This document shows positions 9,878 to 11,053 of a DNA stretch of 39,640 nt, one piece after another. Both the position numbers and the translations under genes were made by a program. Under the pieces are notes generated by a model. It was not told where the DNA came from. It searched no databases and saw nothing but the letters and a program-made list of their open reading frames with translations. Positions within the stretch are counted from its first letter, which is position 1, and the number at the start of each line of letters is the position of its first letter. This stretch comes from Actinomycetota bacterium (GTDB taxonomy: Bacteria; Actinomycetota; Thermoleophilia; BMS3ABIN01): the NCBI GenBank assembly GCA_023489275.1, contig JAMDDD010000029.1, forward strand, positions 1-39,640, written 5' to 3'.

Positions 9878-9906
9878 TTGACGGATTACCTGACCACAAT
9901 TATAAT
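9878..9906 (+). promoter_or_regulatory. Sigma70-type promoter TTGACG-17 nt-TATAAT
   Basis: TTGACG at 9878-9883, exactly 17-nt spacer, TATAAT at 9901-9906; upstream of the small peptide ORF. Confidence 0.75.
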
Positions 9907-9971
9907 GTTTAAGGTTGACGATGATGCCATTGCGACTACAAAATGGAAACAGGGGATCAGGGGGAAGTAAA

Positions 9972-10115
9972 ATGGATGATTTTGGCGCGACCTATGCTGA
10001 ACCATGTTTGACAAAGCTTGGCAATATTATTGATATCACAGCCGATTCTGTCGGGTGGGCCTCCAGCTGGTGCGTCAATGACGAGGATGACGACGGCCAA
10101 AGCTGCGACGATTGA
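9972..10115 (+). CDS. Small lasso-leader-like RiPP precursor candidate (47 aa)
   Basis: MDDFGATYAEPCLTKLGNIIDITADSVGWASSWCVNDEDDDGQSCDD; YxxPxLxxLGxxxDIT motif typical of lasso-family leaders; SD 'ggggaag' upstream of ATG; own promoter and terminator. Track start (9915) is probably too early. Confidence 0.6.
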   Translation: MDDFGATYAEPCLTKLGNIIDITADSVGWASSWCVNDEDDDGQSCDD

Positions 10116-10143
10116 CGGCTGCCCTTGTGTCAAGCTTAAGCCC

Positions 10144-10164
10144 GGGCTCCTCTGGAGCCCTTTT
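10144..10164 (+). terminator. Rho-independent terminator
   Basis: GGGCTCC-TCT-GGAGCCC followed by TTTT, 28 nt after the peptide stop. Confidence 0.8.
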
Positions 10165-10308: not shown

Positions 10309-10387
10309 GGGGGCGTAGCTCAGTTTGGTCCAGAGCGCCGGCCTGTCACGCCGGAGGTCGCGGGTTCGAGCCCCGTCGCTCCCGCCA
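10309..10387 (+). tRNA. tRNA-Asp (GTC), CCA encoded
   Basis: GGGGGCGTAGCTCAGTTTGGTCCAGAGCGCCGGCCTGTCACGCCGGAGGTCGCGGGTTCGAGCCCCGTCGCTCCCGCCA; 7-bp acceptor stem, anticodon GTC, TTCGAGC T-loop. Confidence 0.95.
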
Positions 10388-10696: not shown

Positions 10697-11053
10697 ATAA
10701 TCGTTGAAGGAGCCGAAGCGCTGTTGGAAAGGTTGGGGACGGAGAGCGCCATTGTACCCGAAGTGTGGCCACTAGAGACAACCAATGCGCTGTTGGTTGC
10801 CCAGCGAAGAGGAAGGATTACGGAGAAAGACGTTGCGCGGGCACTTGAGGATCTGGCTGCCCTGCCAATACAGGTTGATCAGGAAACTCACCGGCAAGCG
10901 CTACAGGCTACATTAACTCTGGCAACCAAATACAGGCTTTCGTCATATGACGCCGCTTATCTGGAACTAGCCCGGCGTATACGCGTTCCGCTGGCGACGC
11001 TGGATACAAAGCTGCGCTCCGCGTGCAAGTCTGCCGGGATTGAAGTTCTGTGA
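10697..11053 (+). pseudogene. 5'-truncated PIN-domain (VapC-like) toxin
   Basis: EALLERLGTESAIVPEVWPLETTNALLVAQRRGRI...SSYDAAYLELARRIRVPLATLDTKLRSACKSAGIEVL matches PIN C-terminal two thirds; in-frame TAG at 10694 and no N-terminal DxS/T catalytic segment. Confidence 0.75.

Follow-up and report, generated by a model that had tools for sequence, protein, structure and literature searches.

Lasso-leader-like precursor peptides scattered over the genomes of a Thermoleophilia family: a possible LPP-like system of linear peptides matured in trans

The locus described here raises the question of what a small, self-contained gene with a lasso-type leader might encode when it stands apart from any enzyme that could mature its product. 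The window, i.e., the whole stretch of DNA that was analysed (39,640 nt), is the entire contig C22 of a genome of 1.58 Mb in 45 contigs that is 92% complete. An earlier note had described a promoter, a Shine-Dalgarno sequence, a 47-aa ORF and a terminator, and all of these are found on the forward strand. The sigma-70-type promoter (9878..9906) consists of a -35 box TTGACG (9878-9883), a 17-nt spacer and a -10 box TATAAT (9901-9906), which together agree with the consensus at 11/12 positions; in a 1.2-kb stretch around the gene, sites with at least 9/12 agreement occur five times as compared to 0.6 expected from shuffles. There follow the Shine-Dalgarno-like GGGGGAAG (9960..9967), the gene for the 47-aa precursor peptide (9972..10115, stop included, with its ATG at 9972), whose translation agrees with the one quoted earlier, and an intrinsic terminator stem-loop with a subsequent TTTT (10144..10160). 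The terminator stem, GGGCTCC-TCT-GGAGCCC, folds with -13.8 kcal/mol (z=-2.2), though 7/200 shuffles fold equally well; taken alone, this fold signal is modest. Directly 3′ of the precursor gene lies a tRNA-Asp (gtc) at 10309-10387, and the stretch from 10724 to 11053 carries a PIN-domain (VapC-like) ORF that lacks the start of the domain and is probably a truncated remnant.

Scanned against Pfam and NCBIfam, the window peptide gave no match over cutoff. The reality of the ORF was judged with two profiles, both of which were built with the window sequence left out, which avoids circularity. A profile of the group B peptides (see below) of eight relatives matched the window ORF with E=5.6e-13, the next of the 1044 window frames being at 4.6, and a profile made only of the paralogs in its own genome matched it with E=1.6e-5, with the next match among the same frames at 1.4. 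Since profiles that had not seen the window sequence still recover the ORF, we take it to be a genuine gene and not a chance reading frame.

The gene had been regarded as an orphan, which it is not. Used as a query, the 47-aa peptide gave four weak matches elsewhere in its own genome, all of them small ORFs with the same leader (for example, MNKNRNKQECYKKPELVRLGNLKEITFECSGWQCSVVVPPAP), and a family profile finds seven copies there. The same profile finds 5-12 copies per genome in all 18 other genomes of the GTDB family to which the source organism, itself uncultured, belongs (here termed f1), a family of the Thermoleophilia (Actinomycetota) whose members, judging by their names, come mostly from subsurface samples. 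No matches were obtained in 41 genomes from seven other families of the class, and among 398 Actinomycetota genomes searched with a broader profile, the eight with matches all belong to f1. The precursor genes thus appear as a multi-copy family scattered over the f1 genomes, and the anticipated homologues with variable cores are present in every one of the relatives. As to their surroundings, precursor genes adjoin pyrR/pyrB/pyrC-like genes in three genomes (L066, L074, L075), in two of them as the group C sequence AEECWECQGSF, and in several genomes (L076, L082, L089, L093), the place beside hemC/hemA-like and LOG-like genes is constantly held by a group A precursor that has no secreted partner.

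What the family has in common is best seen when its 82 unique peptides are placed in one register. The leader recognition segment, which is YAEPCLTKLGNIIDIT in the window peptide (9993..10040), extends over 16 residues from Tyr at -16 to Thr at -1, with P-13 in 82/82, N-6 in 80/82 and T-1 in 81/82 of the peptides, and with His at -8 in 44. In the pattern by which the peptides were selected, Tyr/Phe/Asn, Pro, Leu/Val/Ile and Thr/Ser were already prescribed, such that N-6 and the core constitute the independent part of this conservation. The YxxPxLxxLGxxxxxT motif that had been claimed for the window peptide is matched exactly; the model lasso_leader_L3 recognizes one family member over cutoff, with the window peptide itself below it. 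In the core, Trp+6 is found in 67, Cys+8 in 70 and Ser+9 in 75 of the 82 peptides, and Ser at +3 in only three. Three groups can be distinguished: cores of group A have the form FECxxWQCSVxVPP; in group B, which includes the window gene, the tail after WxCS is rich in Asp, His, Gly or Ser; and group C (L074, L075) has AEECWECQGSFGF. The predicted window core, ADSVGWASSWCVNDEDDDGQSCDD (10041..10112, the exact cleavage site being inferred), keeps the family-conserved Trp+6 and Ser+9 as well as the acidic tail of group B, and carries Ser in place of the usual Cys at +8.

With respect to the enzymes that might act on these peptides, the genome holds a single RRE (PqqD/B1) protein, encoded on another contig (C10:31706-32008), which scores 67 bits with PqqD at a Pfam cutoff of 23.4. 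Its best NCBIfam match is lasso_PqqD_Bac, below the cutoff of that model, and its matches in the PDB are TbiB1 (E=1.8e-10), the lasso PqqD-family chaperone 9x90 and the PqqD family protein 9x8z. The gene is flanked by those for an HprK-like kinase and an NTP_transf_5 protein, a family that is otherwise found in only some of the relatives. All 18 relatives have an RRE match, which exceeds the curated cutoff in 17. Sixteen of the 18 have a lasso-type B2 protein (PF13471) over the Pfam cutoff, mostly immediately adjacent to the RRE, in the order hemW, HprK-like, RRE, B2, DUF2079. The B2 proteins have invariant Cys and His; both that were tested pass the NCBIfam lasso_biosyn_B2 cutoff, and their profile gave no match in the PDB. 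The locus of a second HprK-like gene was inspected in four genomes (L010, L080, L086, L090); in each, the gene lies directly after a group A precursor, and in three, a further precursor comes next. C10 also carries a deletion remnant (L007:18106-18322), namely short pieces of a SPASM radical SAM gene whose counterpart in G004, the sister genome, is intact. One MAG (G011; L152, L153) has five PqqD matches and the HprK/RRE/B2 locus twice, at separate places, which could reflect mixed strains (3% contamination) or duplication.

In the assembly of the source genome, neither the Pfam model nor the family profile found a B2 gene, a statement on absence that is limited, like others of its kind, by contig counts and completeness. 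In G004, B2 lies about 20 kb further along the segment that is syntenic with C10. Because C10 ends at a gene (97% identical to that of G004) about 3.6 kb before the place of B2, and because the next G004 genes of this segment likewise have no close matches in 1.21 Mb of our sequence, a missing assembly segment is a likely explanation. The earlier note had proposed to look through the genome for an RRE, a protease and a cyclase; of these, the RRE is present, and most relatives have B2 next to theirs, while neither a B2 of its own nor a cyclase was found.

Lasso B1/B2 pairs are normally taken as a sign of lasso peptides. One reading is that the window gene encodes such a peptide, with its ring closed by a cyclase from elsewhere in the genome. 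The leader, B1 and B2 are all of the lasso type. However, lasso cyclase models remain far below cutoff in the source genome, the B1/B2 loci inspected in relatives contain no cyclase gene, and the two Asn synthases of the genome score best as AsnB/XrtA type and sit in polysaccharide loci together with radical SAM genes. Furthermore, by the T-x rule of lasso peptides, none of the 82 cores has both a usable residue 1 and Asp/Glu at 7-9 (Asp/Glu at 7-9 taken alone occurs in 3/82), and if the cut is placed directly after the Thr, three of the 82 do. The window core has no acceptor at these positions, just as the earlier note had observed. In view of the missing cyclase and ring acceptor, we reject the identity as a lasso peptide, which we regard as very improbable. 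Of the two options that had been left standing, a divergent lasso peptide or another RiPP that shares the leader, it is the latter that is favoured, and the broader proposal of a lasso-leader-like precursor, not necessarily of a lasso peptide, that is matured in trans draws support from the family, the RRE and the B2 proteins of the relatives.

We favour, with a little more than even confidence, a linear core that is processed by the RRE and B2 and is possibly phosphorylated by an HprK-like kinase. The precursor gene would be transcribed on its own, and the YxxPxL...T leader of its product would be bound by the single stand-alone RRE encoded on the other contig. The RRE would present the leader to the lasso-type B2 cysteine protease, presumably encoded beyond the contig end in the source genome, for a cut at the leader Thr or immediately behind it. 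The released core, acidic, of about 23-24 aa and bearing Trp+6 and Ser+9, should remain linear, since neither a lasso cyclase nor a ring acceptor was found. One of the two HprK-like kinases might then phosphorylate it, most likely at the conserved Ser three residues past the Trp, and the core may be tailored further, prior to its export, by the nucleotidyltransferase and by sugar enzymes encoded nearby. One such maturation set would serve all seven scattered precursors. Several observations count against this mechanism: B2 is absent from the assembly, the conserved Ser is at +9 rather than at +3 as in the phosphosite of the system discussed next, the window core lacks the usual Cys+8, and its dN is at least as high as its dS, which could mean relaxed constraint.

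The closest known system is that of the linear polyphosphorylated peptides (LPPs) of Bacillota, in which a leader of the form YxxPxVLxHQxIxFET, with Y-16 and cleavage after T-1, precedes a core whose Ser3 is polyphosphorylated by HprK, with an NTP transferase present and no cyclase (Popov et al. 2026, PMC13381572). The f1 peptides share the YxxPx[VL] leader with Y-16, T-1 and often His-8, and their genomes share the discrete RRE, the HprK-like kinase, the NTP transferase, the lack of a macrolactam cyclase and polysaccharide genes nearby. They differ in that LPPs use a SipW-like signal peptidase, whereas the f1 locus has the lasso B2 cysteine protease instead (for SipW, the comparison covers the locus only), and no MsbA-like exporter was noticed there. 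Ser+3 of LPPs is replaced by a conserved Ser+9 with Trp+6, and LPP precursors lie in one cluster, while those of f1 are scattered over the genome. Because the leader peptidase and the position of the Ser differ despite the close register, we consider the f1 family LPP-like, but not LPP. Literature searches for other systems that use a lasso-type leader but have no cyclase returned nothing beyond LPPs. Paeninodin-type lasso peptides (B1/B2/C with HprK and an NTP transferase) resemble the f1 system in B1, B2, the HprK-like kinase and a lasso-type leader that ends near Thr, but f1 has no C protein that was found and no ring acceptor, carries Tyr where the paeninodin leader usually has Trp, and has many unlinked precursors. 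The prochlorosins of picocyanobacteria (ProcM lanthipeptides; PMC10783134) also combine a solitary modifying system with many precursors of conserved leader and varied core, though their Nif11-type leader and lanthionine chemistry are unrelated to those of f1. Finally, the SynChlorMet cassette (NCBIfam TIGR04248/04249) brings together PqqD-like and HprK-like proteins for the modification of a peptide, and the proteins of the source genome match it weakly, with scores far below the cutoffs; it is, however, built on two radical SAM enzymes and has no B2.

The evolution of the window copy bears on whether it still makes a product of this kind. In G004, the ortholog (LDDFRANYVDPRLTKLGNIVDITAKHVGWTVSWCIDDDDDGGHKGSHGCDD) adjoins gpi (93% identical) and has the same promoter and terminator, and in G005, a divergent version with a promoter TTGACA-17-TATAAT and a terminator counterpart lies between gpi and Rieske/FAD-reductase genes; in other genomes, a group B gene is also found near the Rieske gene (L056, L057, L062, L063, L067 and L069). 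Between the window and G004, the whole gene shows dN 0.26 and dS 0.18, i.e., a dN/dS of about 1.4, on few codons, as for all of these figures (leader dN 0.14, dS 0.15; core dN 0.38, dS 0.23), as compared to dN 0.03 and dS 0.17 for the neighbouring gpi. Other group B pairs are at about 0.1-0.2, and for this reason the family is constrained while the window copy changes fast, be it by core diversification or by drift. An unlikely possibility, to which the high ratio and the Ser in place of Cys+8 would point, is that the family is real but this paralog is drifting, with promoter, leader and frame kept and the core no longer selected. On the other hand, the two orthologs differ in length by 12 nt without loss of the frame, and both end in Cys-Asp-Asp and retain Trp+6 and Ser+9. 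Several genera have held on to a group B precursor next to gpi or Rieske genes, and rapid change is usual for RiPP cores.

Comparably unlikely is a cross-linked product, in which, once the RRE has recognized the peptide, a radical SAM/SPASM enzyme would link Trp+6 or Cys+8 to an adjacent residue, yielding a cyclophane- or thioether-bridged peptide. In favour of this idea are the strong conservation of Trp-x-Cys-Ser, the SPASM radical SAM genes that several relatives have close to their RRE/B2 locus, and the 30 radical SAM genes in the source genome. However, the SPASM gene near its own RRE is the one reduced to fragments while the precursors persist, and the SPASM enzyme sits among glycosyltransferases, with no peptide-maturase model matching at cutoff. 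It is more doubtful still that the gene encodes no RiPP at all, but a small unmodified secreted or metal-binding peptide in which the YxxPxL segment has another purpose. The Asp-, His- and Gly-rich tails of group B are indeed like those of metal-binding peptides, and two group A members gave weak Ogr_Delta zinc-finger matches; yet these are below cutoff, and we attribute them to chance resemblance through the Cys-x-x-x-Trp-x-Cys pattern. The motif register moreover fits the lasso leader model, the beginning of the sequence has no signal-peptide-like character, and the purpose of the RRE and, in 16/18 genomes, of the lasso B2 would otherwise be unexplained.

For the processed linear peptide that we prefer, a clue to its role comes from group A. 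Of the 28 group A loci inspected, 22 have a gene for a secreted-type protein that is followed within about 200 nt by the start of the precursor; the window gene stands without a partner of this kind. The partner proteins share a C-terminal domain of ~105 aa (WASxxDYxxGxLSV...YxVPxGV...YTYP), with which no Pfam model reaches its cutoff. Each f1 genome has 13-39 copies of the domain, and it is almost never found in the four class relatives tested. In the source genome, five of the seven precursors follow a gene with this domain, though only 13 such genes were detected. Loci with the domain include L008, L009 and L010 (on C30, C23 and C45 of the source genome) and L074-L095, often with a RiPP-like precursor next, and at L008:2500-7153, a NosD-like beta-helix protein and a precursor form a tandem near-duplicate with identical C-terminal domains. 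One may speculate, as a tentative idea, that this is a new RiPP type, in which an RRE/B2 pair and HprK-like kinases, without a cyclase, produce a dozen scattered linear Trp-x-Cys-Ser peptides, and that the group A products work with or become attached to the secreted protein encoded upstream, thus forming a surface system of one mostly subsurface lineage.

The retention of B1/B2 throughout the family, with no cyclase detected and with multi-gene non-lasso precursors, suggests that leader removal is separable from lasso formation. It would also extend LPP-like linear RiPPs beyond Bacillota, in a trans-acting layout of the precursors that would be overlooked by cluster-based genome mining. From the pairing of group A peptides with secreted proteins one obtains a testable hint of the role that such peptides may have, a question that likewise concerns LPPs and paeninodins.
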